64,000 bases of DNA from Hydrogenovibrio thermophilus. GTDB taxonomy: Bacteria > Pseudomonadota > Gammaproteobacteria > Thiomicrospirales > Thiomicrospiraceae. The stretch lies in NCBI RefSeq assembly GCF_004028275.1, contig NZ_CP035033.1, forward strand, positions 744,001 to 808,000, written 5' to 3'. The stretch's first letter is position 1, and every line of letters starts with the position of its first letter. The notes below the pieces were generated by a model. That model was given only the letters and a program-made list of their open reading frames with translations, ran no database searches and was not told the origin of the DNA. This document shows positions 54,913-62,972 of the stretch, in pieces. A program made the position numbers and the translations under genes.

Positions 54913-55743
54913 TTACTCGCGGTAACCAGGTCCGTCGATTTCCAGGCCGTTTGACATATAAGCTTGGAAGAACTCTAGGTTACGGTAGGTTTCACCCTGT
55001 GCCTTGAATGGCTTAGCACGCATGTTTTTGTTACAACCACCGTAACGACGGTGTAGCGTACCCAATTCTTGCCATTTCGCACGGAAAACCGGGAAGTGAG
55101 TCGTGTGACCCAACGCTGGCGAAAGGATGTTCGCACGCGCTTTACGACCGGCGTTATATACGTGACATTTTGCACAAGACAAGTTCAGCTGACCACGCGG
55201 CTGGATGAAAAACTCTTGGCCGGCTTCAAAGGCTTTACGAGCCCCTTCAGAATCGATTTTAACATCGATTTTTTGACCACGAGCGTTGTAAGCGTAGTAA
55301 GCGGATAGTTTGGCGATATCGCCTTTTTTCCACTTGAAGGCTTTCAGGCCAGCGTCGGTACGACATTTGTTGATTTGTTGTTCCAATGTTTCAACTTGCT
55401 GTGTTTTTTCGTTGAAAAGTGGATACTTCACACGTACTTTAGATACGTCCGAACCGAAGCACTTGTCGTAAACGGCTTTGTCTTTGTTGTAAAGCGCTTC
55501 ACCCGCATCGACGGCGTCTAGATACGGAGGGAATTCTTCAACCGATTCCCATTGCGCCATTTTGTCTTCAGAGTAATTATAGGCACCGAGTCTATAATTT
55601 TCGAATTCGATATTTGGATTCTTTGCTTTGAAATAGTCAACGAATTGTTTGTGACTTTGCTCAGGATCCACGTTACCTGCGACAGCTAGATTAGCTGTTG
55701 CTGTTGCACCTAATGTTAAGGCGACTAGCAATGTTTTCTTCAT
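54913..55743 (-). CDS. soxA: Thiosulfate oxidation cytochrome SoxA (single haem-binding motif)
   Basis: 276 residues with a signal peptide (about 1-22, ending ANLAVAG). It forms the SoxXA enzyme that links thiosulfate to SoxY. There is one c-type haem motif, CAKCH at 190-194, and the active-site cysteine in RRYGGCNKN (Cys237), which in known SoxA carries a persulfide and ligates the haem. Cys95 and Cys127 stand where the first haem of two-haem SoxA proteins lies, probably as a disulfide. GGAGG precedes the ATG. Last gene of soxXYZA. Confidence 0.95.
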   Translation of the reverse strand: MKKTLLVALTLGATATANLAVAGNVDPEQSHKQFVDYFKAKNPNIEFENYRLGAYNYSEDKMAQWESVEEFPPYLDAVDAGEALYNKDKAVYDKCFGSDVSKVRVKYPLFNEKTQQVETLEQQINKCRTDAGLKAFKWKKGDIAKLSAYYAYNARGQKIDVKIDSEGARKAFEAGQEFFIQPRGQLNLSCAKCHVYNAGRKARANILSPALGHTTHFPVFRAKWQELGTLHRRYGGCNKNMRAKPFKAQGETYRNLEFFQAYMSNGLEIDGPGYRE

Positions 55744-55805
55744 CCCATTCCTCCGTCCGAGAACTCTTTATTTATAAAGTATTATTATATGTAATATGGT
55801 TTTAA

Positions 55806-55832
55806 ACACCCCCTTTCTGAGAAAGAGGGTGT
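55806..55832 (-). other. Strong hairpin between soxZ and soxA
   Basis: ACACCCTCTTTC-TCA-GAAAGGGGGTGT on the minus strand: a 12-bp stem with one G-T pair, 16 bp past the soxZ stop. A TATAAT at about 55784-55789 (minus strand) lies downstream of it, so soxA may have both reduced read-through and its own promoter. Confidence 0.6.
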
Positions 55833-55847
55833 GGGACAATCAGTTGC

Positions 55848-56159
55848 TTATTTTAGCTTGATTGTTTCAGTACCTTTAGCACCAGTGTTGTCAGTTAGGT
55901 TAAGGGTAACTTCGTCACCTTTGTTTGCTTTAACCATAACACCCATGTAAGGGTTAGCGGAAACCGCACCAGACCATTGAGATTCGATCGCTTTAGTTCC
56001 GTTTACCAGAACTTCAACGTTGTTGATGAACTCAGCTGGATATGGCTTGCCAGTTTTTTTGTTCATACGAGCACCGGATTCCATTTTGTGCTTGATTAGA
56101 GCTTTAACTTCAGCTACGCCACCTTTTGACTTTCCACGCATTCTGATTTTAATTGACAT
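55848..56159 (-). CDS. soxZ: Thiosulfate oxidation carrier protein SoxZ
   Basis: 103 residues, cytoplasmic by sequence and carried out with SoxY through its Tat signal. It shows VKALIKHKMESGARM and GKPYPAEFINNVEVLVNG near the middle and the ANPYMGVMVKANKGDEV segment, the standard SoxZ pattern with an immunoglobulin-like fold. SoxYZ holds the sulfur intermediates on the SoxY cysteine. The fourth gene of the operon is separated from it by a hairpin. Confidence 0.96.
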   Translation of the reverse strand: MSIKIRMRGKSKGGVAEVKALIKHKMESGARMNKKTGKPYPAEFINNVEVLVNGTKAIESQWSGAVSANPYMGVMVKANKGDEVTLNLTDNTGAKGTETIKLK

Positions 56160-56202
56160 GTTATTTCCTTTAAATTTTGTTTGCAGTATTTAAAAAATTC
56201 TA

Positions 56203-56217
56203 AGTAACTTCGTTACT
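56203..56217 (-). other. Small hairpin between soxY and soxZ
   Basis: AGTAAC-GAA-GTTACT on the minus strand, then TAGAATTTTTT: a weak attenuator or processing site in the soxY-soxZ gap. Confidence 0.4.
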
Positions 56218-56225
56218 GTGTTGGA

Positions 56226-56693
56226 TTAACCGCCACAACCACCGATTGTTACTTTAACTTCTTGTTCTGCTTTGTATAGTTTTCCGCCTGCTTTTACGAT
56301 AGCGATAACGTTTTGAGTTTCACCCATTTTGATACGAGTGGAAACATAACCCATAGCAGGACCAGAGAAGCTGTATTCGCAAACCAAAGGCATAGGGTTT
56401 TTAGCGGCTAGGATTGAGATAGACTCAACGCCAGACATTTTAGTTGCGTCAACTTTGATTGGTGTAACCGCACCGTTTTCTGCGATAGCTGGCGCACCTA
56501 GATCGATGTCTCCAGATTTAGCTGCAGATGCACTTCCATATACTGCATTTAGAGCGTCATCAGTTGATTTTGCTTCGAAAGCTTTTTTATTCCATGCTGC
56601 CAAAACAGTTGAAGGTGTTAGAAGACCAGCGTTCACTGCAACAGCAGCTGCACCAGTTGCAAGGGTACCTTTAAGGAAAGATCTACGTTTCAT
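56226..56693 (-). CDS. soxY: Thiosulfate oxidation carrier protein SoxY
   Basis: 155 residues. A twin-arginine signal peptide (MKRRSFLKGTLATGAAAVAV), a beta-rich domain, and the invariant C-terminal GGCGG (151-155), whose cysteine carries thiosulfate-derived sulfur during oxidation. The protein is exported folded with SoxZ. It lies 37 bp after soxX in the operon. Confidence 0.97.
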   Translation of the reverse strand: MKRRSFLKGTLATGAAAVAVNAGLLTPSTVLAAWNKKAFEAKSTDDALNAVYGSASAAKSGDIDLGAPAIAENGAVTPIKVDATKMSGVESISILAAKNPMPLVCEYSFSGPAMGYVSTRIKMGETQNVIAIVKAGGKLYKAEQEVKVTIGGCGG

Positions 56694-56730
56694 AAGGTTT
56701 AAAACTCCCGGTTAAGGTTTAAAATAAAAA

Positions 56731-57105
56731 TTATAGTGTGTACATGAAATCAACAATTTTTGCGATTTCATCGTCTGACAAGATTCCGTTTTGTCCGAAC
56801 GGAGGCATCATGCTGTCTGGAATCTGAGTTTCAGGTTTACCCCAAATTTTGTCGTATAGCTTTTGTTTATCAGGGTAGCGTAATTTCATAGCAATTAACG
56901 CTGGTCCGATATTACCCGGTAGATTCCCTCCTGGAACCATGTGGCAAGCTAAGCAGTTTCCTTTCGAGCGACTAAAAGCCAATTCTTTACCTGCTTCAAC
57001 GTTGCTCGCACCTTTGTCGGCGGCTTGAGTCGCTAGAGGTGCAGAGACCATTGCTGTCGAGATAGTCAAAGCAGTTAACAATTGCTTCATTTTCGTTTTC
57101 AACAT
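56731..57105 (-). CDS. soxX: Thiosulfate oxidation cytochrome SoxX
   Basis: 124 residues with a signal peptide (about 1-28). A small class I cytochrome c: haem motif CLACH at 51-55 and a likely axial Met in PDSMMPPFG (99-100). It takes electrons from SoxA. TTAGGAGGATAAG gives an excellent ribosome site. First gene of soxXYZA; soxB, soxCD and regulators are not in the window. Confidence 0.95.
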   Translation of the reverse strand: MLKTKMKQLLTALTISTAMVSAPLATQAADKGASNVEAGKELAFSRSKGNCLACHMVPGGNLPGNIGPALIAMKLRYPDKQKLYDKIWGKPETQIPDSMMPPFGQNGILSDDEIAKIVDFMYTL

Positions 57106-59095: not shown

Positions 59096-59974
59096 ATGGC
59101 CTATAAGAAATTGACCAAAGCTGTCATTCCCGTTGCCGGTCTCGGCACCCGTTTCCTTCCTGCTACCAAAGCCATTCCTAAAGAGATGTTGACGGTTGTC
59201 GACAAACCCCTGATTCAATACATTGTGCACGAAGCGGCCGAAGCCGGTATCACCGATATCATTCTGGTGACCCATTCCAGTAAAGGCGCCATCGAAAACC
59301 ATTTCGATAAACATTACGAGCTGGAAAACGAGTTGGAAGTGCGCGGTAAGGAGGACCGAATGATTCCTCTCAAGGAAATTACCCCAAAAGGCGTGCGCAT
59401 TGTCAGTGTGCGCCAGCCGGAAGCCTTGGGATTGGGGCATGCGATTTTATGCGCTTCGCCGATCATAGCCGATAACGAGCCGTTTGCGGTGTTGTTGCCG
59501 GATGTATTGATGTATCACCCGAAAAAAGGCTGTTTGGCCCAGATGGCTGAGCAGTATCGAAAAATGCATACCAGTGTTGTGGCCCTGGAAGCGGTACCCG
59601 ACGACCAAGTGGAAAAGTACGGCATTGCCGCGGTGAAGGGGCCGGATTTACGCATCGTGGAATTGGTCGAGAAGCCGAAGCCGGCTGAGGCGCCGTCGAA
59701 TTTGTCCGTTGTGGGGCGTTATATTTTCACGCCGAGAGTGATGGAAATCCTGAAAACGACCAAGCCTGGCGCCGGTGGTGAAATCCAGTTGACGGATGCC
59801 ATGGACGAATTGTTGGGTGAAGAGGTGATGTTCGGATTCGAATTCAAAAACGGTAAGACGTATGACTGCGGCGATAAGCTCGGTTATTTGCAGGCTAACG
59901 TCGAATATGCCTTGAGAGATAAAAAACTGGGCGGTGATTTCAAAAAATACCTGAAAACACTCGAATTGAAATAA
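59096..59974 (+). CDS. galU: UTP:glucose-1-phosphate uridylyltransferase
   Basis: 292 residues; makes UDP-glucose. AVIPVAGLGTRFLPATKAIP is the nucleotide-binding N terminus, KEMLTVVDKPLIQYIVHEA follows, and KGCLAQMAEQY and EIQLTDAMDELL are GalU-like. It is the first of three genes (galU-pgi-ugd-like) turning hexose phosphates into UDP sugars for polysaccharide or LPS. Confidence 0.97.
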   Translation: MAYKKLTKAVIPVAGLGTRFLPATKAIPKEMLTVVDKPLIQYIVHEAAEAGITDIILVTHSSKGAIENHFDKHYELENELEVRGKEDRMIPLKEITPKGVRIVSVRQPEALGLGHAILCASPIIADNEPFAVLLPDVLMYHPKKGCLAQMAEQYRKMHTSVVALEAVPDDQVEKYGIAAVKGPDLRIVELVEKPKPAEAPSNLSVVGRYIFTPRVMEILKTTKPGAGGEIQLTDAMDELLGEEVMFGFEFKNGKTYDCGDKLGYLQANVEYALRDKKLGGDFKKYLKTLELK

Positions 59975-60033: not shown

Positions 60034-61665
60034 ATGGGCGTTGAAACATCAGCAGCATGGCAAGCATTGCAGTTGCATTGTGATTCCGGTATGGGCGCGA
60101 TGCACTTGTCCAGTTTGTTTGGCGAAGCAAACCGGGTAGACCGCTTTTCGTTGGAGCTCGACGAGCTGTATATCGATTTTTCCAAGAACCGTATCACTGA
60201 AGAGACTTTGAGTCTTTTGCAAGCGCTGGCCGAACAGCAAGGCCTTAAACACGAAATCGAGCGTCTGTTGGTCGGTGAAGAAGTCAATGATACCGAGGAA
60301 CGCCCCGCGCTTCATTCAGCCCTTCGTGCCCAAGGTCAGGATGTTTCCGGAGTGGCGGAACAGGTGCAGGGTGACGTGGAAGCCGTTTTGCAAAAAATGA
60401 CACAAATGGTCGACAAAATTCGTGCCGGGCATTGGCGAGGCTACAGTGGCAAACCGATTACGGATGTCGTGAATATTGGTGTGGGGGGGTCCGACCTGGG
60501 GCCGCTGATGATTACCCACAGTTTGCAAACGGTGCATTCGCCGGTCAATTTGCATTTCATTTCGTCGATTGACGGAACGCAAACTTCTAACTTATTGCGC
60601 GGTTTGAACCAGGAAACCACCTTGTTCATTCTGGCATCCAAGTCGTTTACCACAATCGATACCCTGTCGAATGCCGAAACCGCTAAAGATTGGTTGCGTG
60701 AATGCATCAAAAGCGACGATGTCATCCACGCTCAACATTTTATCGGGGTGTCGACCAAACCGGACAAAATGACGGAGTGGGGCATTCCCCCGGAAAACCA
60801 ATTGCTGTTTTGGGATTGGGTCGGCGGACGTTATTCGCTTTGGTCCGCCATCGGCTTCCCGATTGCGTTGAAAATCGGCATGCCCGGCTTCCGTGAACTG
60901 TTACAAGGCGCGCACTTGATGGATCAGCATTTTGCGACGGCGCCTTTATCGGAAAATATTCCGGTCGTTTTGGGCCTGATTGATATTTGGAACATCAATT
61001 TCCTGAATATTCATGATAAAGCGATTCTGCCGTATGACGCGCGTCTGAAATACTTGCCCTCTTATTTGGAGCAGCTGGTGATGGAAAGTAACGGTAAGTC
61101 GGTCGCGAAAAGCGGCGACAGTGTCGCCTATAAAACCTGTCCTGTTTTGTGGGGCGAGGTTGGGCCGAACGCACAGCACGCTTTCTATCAGTTACTGCAT
61201 CAGGGAACACAAGCCGTGATGTGCGATTTTATCGCGCCGGTGGAACGGGATGATTTTGACGCTACGTCACATGCCGAGAAGGATGAAAGCTTACGCCATC
61301 AGCATGAGTTGGCCTTAGCCAACTGTTTCGCTCAATCTCGGGTATTGATGCTGGGGGATGGTGCGATTCCGGATAATTTAAAATCCAGTTTCGATTCGCC
61401 GTTCAAACACTATCCTGGCAACCAACCCTCGAACACCATTTTAATGAAAACCATTTCTGCGAAAACTTTGGGGATGCTGGTGGCGATGTATGAACATAAA
61501 ACCTATGTCGAAGGTGTGATGTGGGGAATTAATTCGTTTGACCAGTGGGGGGTTGAACTCGGAAAACTGATTGCCAAGGAAACCTACAGTGCGATTAAAG
61601 AAAAAACATTGGCCGAGCGTTTTGACAGCTCGACGAAAGCGTTAATTGATAGGGTGGCAAAATGA
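60034..61665 (+). CDS. pgi: Glucose-6-phosphate isomerase
   Basis: 543 residues; interconverts glucose 6-phosphate and fructose 6-phosphate. The family signatures are VNIGVGGSDLGPLMI near residue 148, ILASKSFTTIDTL, WDWVGGRYSLWSAIGFP near 264, and the C-terminal SFDQWGVELGKLIA. GAGAGGA precedes the ATG. The stop overlaps the next start (ATGA). In an autotroph it serves gluconeogenic flow. Confidence 0.97.
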   Translation: MGVETSAAWQALQLHCDSGMGAMHLSSLFGEANRVDRFSLELDELYIDFSKNRITEETLSLLQALAEQQGLKHEIERLLVGEEVNDTEERPALHSALRAQGQDVSGVAEQVQGDVEAVLQKMTQMVDKIRAGHWRGYSGKPITDVVNIGVGGSDLGPLMITHSLQTVHSPVNLHFISSIDGTQTSNLLRGLNQETTLFILASKSFTTIDTLSNAETAKDWLRECIKSDDVIHAQHFIGVSTKPDKMTEWGIPPENQLLFWDWVGGRYSLWSAIGFPIALKIGMPGFRELLQGAHLMDQHFATAPLSENIPVVLGLIDIWNINFLNIHDKAILPYDARLKYLPSYLEQLVMESNGKSVAKSGDSVAYKTCPVLWGEVGPNAQHAFYQLLHQGTQAVMCDFIAPVERDDFDATSHAEKDESLRHQHELALANCFAQSRVLMLGDGAIPDNLKSSFDSPFKHYPGNQPSNTILMKTISAKTLGMLVAMYEHKTYVEGVMWGINSFDQWGVELGKLIAKETYSAIKEKTLAERFDSSTKALIDRVAK

Positions 61666-62972
61666 GAGTAACCGTTTTTGGATGTGAGTTGAGCGGTTTG
61701 GTAACCGCAGGGTCCTTGGCGCATACCGGTAATGAAGTGCTGGCGTTGCCAATCGGAAACTTGAAGGTCGAGGATTTACGGCAGGGCATTTTGCCGCGCG
61801 ATGAACCCGGGTTGGATCAACTGATTTTAAGTCAGTTAAAAGAAGGGCGTTTGGCGTTTTCCGATGATTGGAAAGCGGGCATCGAACACGGTGAAGTGTA
61901 TATGCTGAGCATGCCGTCCTGGCGTGCCGATCGCGCTGAATTGGTGATTGATGAAATCGGCAAGCAGGCGCAAGGCGATGTATTGGTGGTCAATCAAAGT
62001 ACCTTTCCAATCGGCACCGCCGATCGCTTTGAAGCCTCGATTAAGTTGGCGTTTGCCCAGCGCGGTCTGGTGGCGAAAGTGTCCGTGGTGTCCATGCCGG
62101 AATTCATCAGTGAAGGCTCGGCCATCAACGATTTTTCCAAGCCGTCGCGAGTCATTCTGGGGAGTCAGGATGAGGATGCGATTGCGATTATGCGGGATTT
62201 GATGCGCCCGTTCAATCACGTGACCGATCAGGTCAAGGTGATGTCGACGCGTGCTGCCGAATACACCAAATACGCCGTCAATGCTCTGTTGGCCACGCGG
62301 ATCAGTTTGGTGAACGAACTGGCCAATAATGCCGAACATTTCAATATCGATATGGAAGAGGTGCGGCAAGGTTTAGGGTCCGATTCCCGCATCGGGTTCA
62401 GTTATCTGTTTCCGGGGTGCGGTTTCGGCGGGCCGAATTTTGCGGCCGACGTGCAAGCCCTGGTGGGTACTTTGCAGTCGAAAGGCTATGATGCGGACTT
62501 GTTGAAAGCGGTGCTGCAAAACAATGAAGTCCAGAAAGAGGTTTTGTTCCGCAAAGCCTGGCGTTATTTCAAAAACGATTTGCGCGGTTTGAAAATCGGT
62601 ATCTGGGGTTTGTCCTTTAAACCGAATACAGCTACGGTCGATAATGCACCCAGCGTGAAAACCATTGAAGCCTTGGTGGCTCAAGGGGCTGAAGTGGTGG
62701 CGTATGACCCGAAAGCCAATCCGTCGTTCAAGGCTTATTGGGGGGAGCGTAACAGTGTCACACTGGTTGAGGATATGTACGAAGCTTTGGAGCAAGTGGA
62801 TGCCTTGATGATCCTGACCGAGTGGCGACGCTTCTGGAGTCCGGATTACCAGAGAATGTTCGATTTGATGAAACGACCGGTGGTTTTTGATGGCCGGAAT
62901 ATTTACGAGCATGATGTGATGGTGCAGCATGGGTTCCGGCACTTCGGTGTCGGCCGCGGTGAGGTCATTTAG
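61662..62972 (+). CDS. UDP-glucose/GDP-mannose dehydrogenase family protein lacking the catalytic cysteine
   Basis: 436 residues with the overall layout of UDP-glucose 6-dehydrogenase (two Rossmann domains and a central helix). AEYTKYAVNALLATRISLVN, GSDSRIGFSYLFPG and IGIWGLSFKPNTATVDNAPS align well. Three hallmark sites are altered: the GxGxxG nucleotide loop is GCELSG; VGTP is replaced by a MPSW segment (residues 84-87); and GGSCFPKD, which holds the thiol nucleophile, reads GGPNFAAD, so Asn259 stands in its place. It may be a dehydrogenase with changed chemistry or a non-catalytic homologue. Overlaps pgi (ATGA). Confidence 0.85.
   Translation: MRVTVFGCELSGLVTAGSLAHTGNEVLALPIGNLKVEDLRQGILPRDEPGLDQLILSQLKEGRLAFSDDWKAGIEHGEVYMLSMPSWRADRAELVIDEIGKQAQGDVLVVNQSTFPIGTADRFEASIKLAFAQRGLVAKVSVVSMPEFISEGSAINDFSKPSRVILGSQDEDAIAIMRDLMRPFNHVTDQVKVMSTRAAEYTKYAVNALLATRISLVNELANNAEHFNIDMEEVRQGLGSDSRIGFSYLFPGCGFGGPNFAADVQALVGTLQSKGYDADLLKAVLQNNEVQKEVLFRKAWRYFKNDLRGLKIGIWGLSFKPNTATVDNAPSVKTIEALVAQGAEVVAYDPKANPSFKAYWGERNSVTLVEDMYEALEQVDALMILTEWRRFWSPDYQRMFDLMKRPVVFDGRNIYEHDVMVQHGFRHFGVGRGEVI

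Follow-up and report, generated by a model that had tools for sequence, protein, structure and literature searches.

Gene X, which lies directly behind galU and pgi in Hydrogenovibrio thermophilus, probably encodes an ancient pseudoenzyme derived from a UDP-glucose dehydrogenase (Ugd), which would bind a UDP-sugar and sense or organize the GalU/Pgi branch of metabolism (a reading that we hold at a probability of roughly 0.6). The evidence comprises the pattern of lost and kept residues, the grouping of Cys-less homologs in one conserved clade, and the gene neighborhood.

An intact Ugd homolog behind galU and pgi

The following features were located in the window, that is, the whole stretch of 64,000 nucleotides analyzed.

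59096–59974, + strand: galU, UTP-glucose-1-phosphate uridylyltransferase (NCBIfam TIGR01099, 339.7 bits, cut-off 326.8)
60034–61665, + strand: pgi, glucose-6-phosphate isomerase (NCBIfam NF001211, 717 bits, cut-off 492)
61662–62972, + strand: gene X, Ugd homolog of 436 aa lacking the catalytic Cys and the NAD site (PF03721, PF00984, and PF03720)
61680–61697, + strand: GCELSG in place of GxGYVG, the NAD loop (codons 7–12)
61749–61751, + strand: Pro in place of the beta-2 Asp (codon 30)
61911–61922, + strand: MPSW in place of VGTP, with about 7 further residues deleted (codons 84–87, M84-P-S-W87)
62268–62270, + strand: retained active-site Lys (codon 203; Lys204 of S. pyogenes Ugd)
62388–62390, + strand: retained Arg contacting glucose in the partner subunit (codon 243; role from PMC3184952)
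62427–62450, + strand: GGPNFAAD (codons 256–263), with Asn259 for the catalytic Cys, Ala262 for the NAD-contacting Lys, and Asp263 kept
62619–62621, + strand: retained Lys coordinating the UDP diphosphate (codon 320; role from PMC4794789)
62640–62642, + strand: Asp in place of a conserved Arg (codon 327; human Arg346 by alignment offset)

The reading frame of X is intact, running from an ATG start through 436 aa with no internal stops, and its start overlaps the pgi stop by 4 nt (ATGA, 61662–61665). A preliminary description of this DNA as holding an intact Ugd-like frame coupled to galU-pgi and devoid of the catalytic thiol is therefore borne out, and the GGPNFAAD, GCELSG, and MPSW residues are as it gave them, although its list of altered positions omitted the beta-2 Asp and the Arg after FKPNT (D327). 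Downstream of X lies pssA (TIGR00473 over cut-off). Elsewhere in the window, the reverse strand (54913–57105) has genes that by eye resemble a cluster for sulfur oxidation of the sox type (SoxA, Z, Y, and X-like), and these occupy the same place in several relatives.

X belongs by descent to the NDP-sugar dehydrogenase superfamily. All three Pfam domains (UDPG_MGDP_dh_N, middle, and C) were found in the right order and over cut-off, NCBIfam TIGR03026 (nucleotide sugar dehydrogenase) calls the protein over its cut-off, and the sequence match to Burkholderia cepacia Ugd 2y0e has an E value of 3.6e-101. An AlphaFold2 model built with 27 related sequences reached a pLDDT of 92.3 (61.8 with 6 sequences), and its top structural matches were solved UDP-glucose dehydrogenases, with a Z of 50.5 and an rmsd of 1.6 Å over 433 residues at 41% identity against B. 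cepacia BceC (2y0c-e); the model speaks for the fold only, which may be biased by an input alignment consisting mostly of canonical Ugd. The dimer helix is conserved. X resembles long-type Ugd (BceC, TuaD-like; TIGR03026) in its full-length fold and in Lys204, Asn208, Arg244, Gly257/258, Lys320, and the DGRN motif, whereas it differs from that type in lacking the catalytic Cys, GxGYVG, the beta-2 Asp, the VGTP loop, Lys263, and the Arg after FKPNT, and in being linked to galU or galU-pgi.

Cofactor and thiol positions are lost and UDP-sugar positions are kept

A survey of 229 superfamily sequences identified 18 invariant residues, including the catalytic Cys, the glycines of GxGxxG, and Thr83 (PMC4794789). 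The window protein has 15 of the 18; of the three it lacks, Gly9 and Thr83 belong to the NAD site and Cys260 is the thiol. At the GYGGSCFPKD motif of UDP-glucose dehydrogenases, X has GCGFGGPNFAAD, with Asn259 at the Cys of GGxC. Both GxGxxG and the acidic residue after beta-2 are replaced (GCELSG and Pro30), and of the two residues known to contact the nicotinamide ribose, Thr83 is gone with the deleted loop and Lys263, which in S. pyogenes Ugd sits 2.9 Å away from the ribose of NAD, is Ala262 (PMC4794789). The sugar-C6 residues Lys204, Asn208, and Asp264, by comparison, are present as K203, N207, and D263.

The same division runs through a table of sites in which 87 Cys-less homologs were aligned with 65 Cys-containing ones (residue numbers are those of S. 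pyogenes Ugd). Cys260, whose presence or absence defines the two sets, occurs in 0/87 Cys-less homologs. Retention in these is also minimal for Gly9, the second Gly of GxGxxG (1/87), Tyr10 (3/87), Lys263 (3/87), Asp29, the beta-2 Asp (practically none), and the conserved Arg after FKPNT (3/87, with Asp or Glu as the usual replacement), and the VGTP stretch is deleted in 78/78 Cys-less homologs of a smaller alignment. The beta-2 Asp of Rossmann folds binds the adenosine ribose of NAD, and the Arg after FKPNT also has an NAD role. The 65 Cys-containing homologs retain, along with the thiol, all other NAD residues. On the sugar side, Asn219, Arg244, Gly257, Gly258, Lys320, and the Arg of DGRN are retained in 87/87 Cys-less homologs, Lys204 in 86/87, Asp264 in 73/87, and Asn208 in 72/87; the pocket residues Gly257/258, Lys320, and Arg244 are all present in the window protein. 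Human Arg260 reaches the glucose of the partner subunit (PMC3184952), equivalences in human numbering resting on an alignment offset.

Judged from these residues, X very probably lacks dehydrogenase activity: the normal mode of NAD+ binding would be closed to it and the thiol is missing, and with both lost it would not oxidize UDP-glucose. The preliminary description had argued that loss of the thiol blocks the second oxidation. The thiol is indeed gone, but that account is incomplete, since the NAD+ site is lost too, which makes even the first oxidation unlikely. That X is a still working Ugd with unusual residues is accordingly very improbable. The fold, the 15 of 18 invariant residues, and the TIGR03026 call would fit such an enzyme, but the invariants missing are precisely those for NAD and the thiol, Asp29, Lys263, Tyr10, and the conserved Arg are lost as well, and among human Cys mutants, Cys to Ser accumulates a covalent adduct and Cys to Ala is unable to complete the reaction from UDP-glucose (PMC3184952). 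Cys253, put forward earlier as a displaced thiol, was discarded: the position varies in both groups, being Cys (GCGYGGSCFPKD), Ala, Pro, or Val in canonical enzymes and Val, Ala, Thr, Ile, or Leu in Cys-less homologs.

An enzyme catalyzing a different, NAD-independent reaction on a UDP-sugar through the retained Lys/Asn/Asp cluster is conceivable but unlikely. Its three residues are kept in most homologs, the pocket is strictly conserved, and the fold may be open to repurposing, given the ribonuclease activity reported for S. elodea Ugd (as mentioned in PMC4794789). However, the Cys position varies among Ser, Asn, Ala, His, Tyr, and Gly, and Asp264 is changed to Thr, Asn, His, Gly, or Gln in 14/87 homologs, which is unlike one conserved new catalytic set. 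One Cys-less sub-group reads GGEAFLQT, with Asp264 lost too. Loci L194–L200, mostly behind pgi or galU-pgi, read GG(E/D/Q)AF followed by T at the general base Asp264; they belong to family f171, described below.

Cys-less homologs form one clade under purifying selection

In the window's own family (f1), 58 of 63 genomes had a family match at E 1e-10, and the best matches were mostly Cys-less; named carriers are Hydrogenovibrio halophilus, Thiomicrorhabdus cannonii, and Thiomicrospira sp. WB1. Across a class-wide draw of 369 gammaproteobacterial genomes, Cys-less matches fell into three families, f1, f102, and f171, the last of which we presume may resemble Halomonadaceae. All matches read from other families (L068–L090, L137–L156 apart from L145 with its unclear frame, and L239–L268) have the Cys; class-wide matches were read in part, so other families may also have Cys-less members. 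With a stringent cut-off, by which divergent members such as L194–L200 would be missed, a phylum-wide search recovered the clade in f1 and f171 only, and a DNA pattern search for the motif returned true matches and one chance match (L057).

The decisive tree, from which NAD and thiol columns had been removed, placed its 31 Cys-less proteins in one clade (SH-aLRT 100), and the all-column tree likewise placed the Cys-less proteins on one side of a branch (SH-aLRT 100), both trees being quick ones with long branches. Canonical copies from the same families group with other canonical enzymes, outside the X clade. Independent losses in each family are unsupported, as the single clade persists without the NAD and thiol columns and canonical copies from the same families fall outside it. 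The preliminary description had looked to homologs sharing the same changes to form a clade, and they do.

X is under purifying selection as strong as that on pgi. Pairwise dN/dS ranged from 0.018, in a pair 97% identical, to about 0.03, similar to pgi, counting only the closer pairs, since dS is near saturation in most. Catalytic and cofactor residues have thus been lost across a clade under purifying selection, as expected of a pseudoenzyme. A decaying gene, a change peculiar to the strain, or an error in the sequence, the possibility of strain-confined change having been raised in the preliminary description, has a negligible probability: the changes are common to 87 homologs in three families, dN/dS is about 0.02–0.03, frames are intact, and the neighborhood is conserved. 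On the other side stands one related genome (G424), in which X has one frameshift. A pseudogene or error is ruled out by the clade and the selection estimates. The G424 copy (L092:5483–6765) stands behind galU; as the rest of the gene aligns, its frameshift, near L092:6590, arose either recently or through faulty sequencing.

Gene neighborhood and other Ugd copies

Linkage to galU and pgi is a feature of the clade. One or the other lies immediately upstream on the same strand in 88/89 X loci with readable flank (91 Cys-less loci in all, with a few genomes counted twice and two loci having too little flank), and neither was present within 1.1 kb of L200. Of the 54 canonical loci whose upstream flank spans 600 bases or more, only 2 have galU in that position. 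The genes run galU-pgi-X in f1, in f102, and in some of f171, most of which has galU-X instead, and galU-pgi adjacency occurred only in X-bearing genomes among the 30 pgi loci compared. A phosphomannomutase/phosphoglucomutase-like gene (family match below the curated cut-off) lies 3' of X in genus group g5. In genome G004 (L110:1368–2534), a HipA-like gene (TIGR03071 over cut-off) is located between pgi and X.

In other gammaproteobacterial families, six canonical loci (L239, L241, L247, L252, L258, and L260) have galU or pgi within 1.5 kb, pointing to an origin of X from an active Ugd in a cluster of this kind. Their Ugd, a GGSCFPKD enzyme, shares the superfamily and an X-like neighborhood but, unlike X, has the thiol motif and GxGYVG intact and stands outside the X clade; the arrangement is a plausible picture of the active ancestor.

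The genome of H. thermophilus has a second, intact Ugd, which the preliminary description had proposed looking for. This copy (L002; GTGYVG and GYGGYCLPKD) lies beside an epimerase-like gene, scores 670 bits against NF011631 (below the cut-off of 757), and exceeds the TIGR03026 cut-off. Its existence, together with the conserved dimer helix, would allow X to act as a regulatory or structural partner of canonical Ugd in a mixed oligomer. We consider this improbable, as L002 is a different, short-type enzyme (26–28% identity), and as four complete genomes carry X without any other PF00984 protein. In these single-contig genomes (G026, G030, G032, and G062), X is the sole protein with the PF00984 central domain and a PF00984 search found no canonical nucleotide-sugar dehydrogenase, so X is in general independent of a canonical partner; an obligate partnership is out. 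The four organisms probably make no UDP-glucuronate by the Ugd route.

X as a putative UDP-glucose sensor or scaffold

X retains the fold with its three domains, the dimer helix, and the residues of the UDP-sugar pocket, and it is encoded in one cluster with galU and pgi. We propose that UDP-glucose or a close UDP-sugar would occupy its pocket, and that this occupancy would let X sense or organize the branch of glucose-6-phosphate, glucose-1-phosphate, and UDP-glucose, perhaps through an effect on GalU or Pgi. A kept substrate side with a lost NAD side would be the expected look of a sugar-nucleotide sensor or scaffold. Binding of UDP-glucose or a close UDP-sugar is likely on the strength of the conserved pocket. 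Conservation of the altered version in at least three families indicates that X is probably a UDP-glucose-binding regulator or scaffold and not the enzyme named by databases, and the regulatory or structural homolog listed among the options of the preliminary description is a serious one. The gene neighbors suggest the UDP-glucose pathway and not a specific target; GalU or Pgi as the regulatory target is a guess we would make with some doubt.

Regulators related to UDP-glucose exist elsewhere. GalF, a GalU paralog ("GalU regulator", NCBIfam TIGR01105), is, as X would be, a regulatory homolog of a UDP-glucose pathway enzyme, but it is a nucleotidyltransferase of an unrelated family, and this works-like analogy follows the NCBIfam name. 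UgtP and OpgH are UDP-glucose-related cell-size regulators that report carbon status; they differ from X in being glucosyltransferases without the Ugd fold.

We found no description of a Cys-less Ugd group in the open-access literature, which is weak evidence of absence. Tentatively, the X clade might be an undescribed family of UDP-glucose sensors feeding back onto GalU/Pgi or another cell process, in relatives of Hydrogenovibrio/Thiomicrorhabdus and in two or more further families of Gammaproteobacteria. Here, a clade that is old and conserved departs from the 229-sequence survey (PMC4794789) at invariant positions for the cofactor and the thiol while leaving the substrate side intact, and with those positions altered, the annotation of X as a nucleotide sugar dehydrogenase (TIGR03026) is probably wrong on activity. 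If X does sense UDP-glucose, it would offer a tractable handle on how these bacteria split carbon between central metabolism and cell-envelope sugars.
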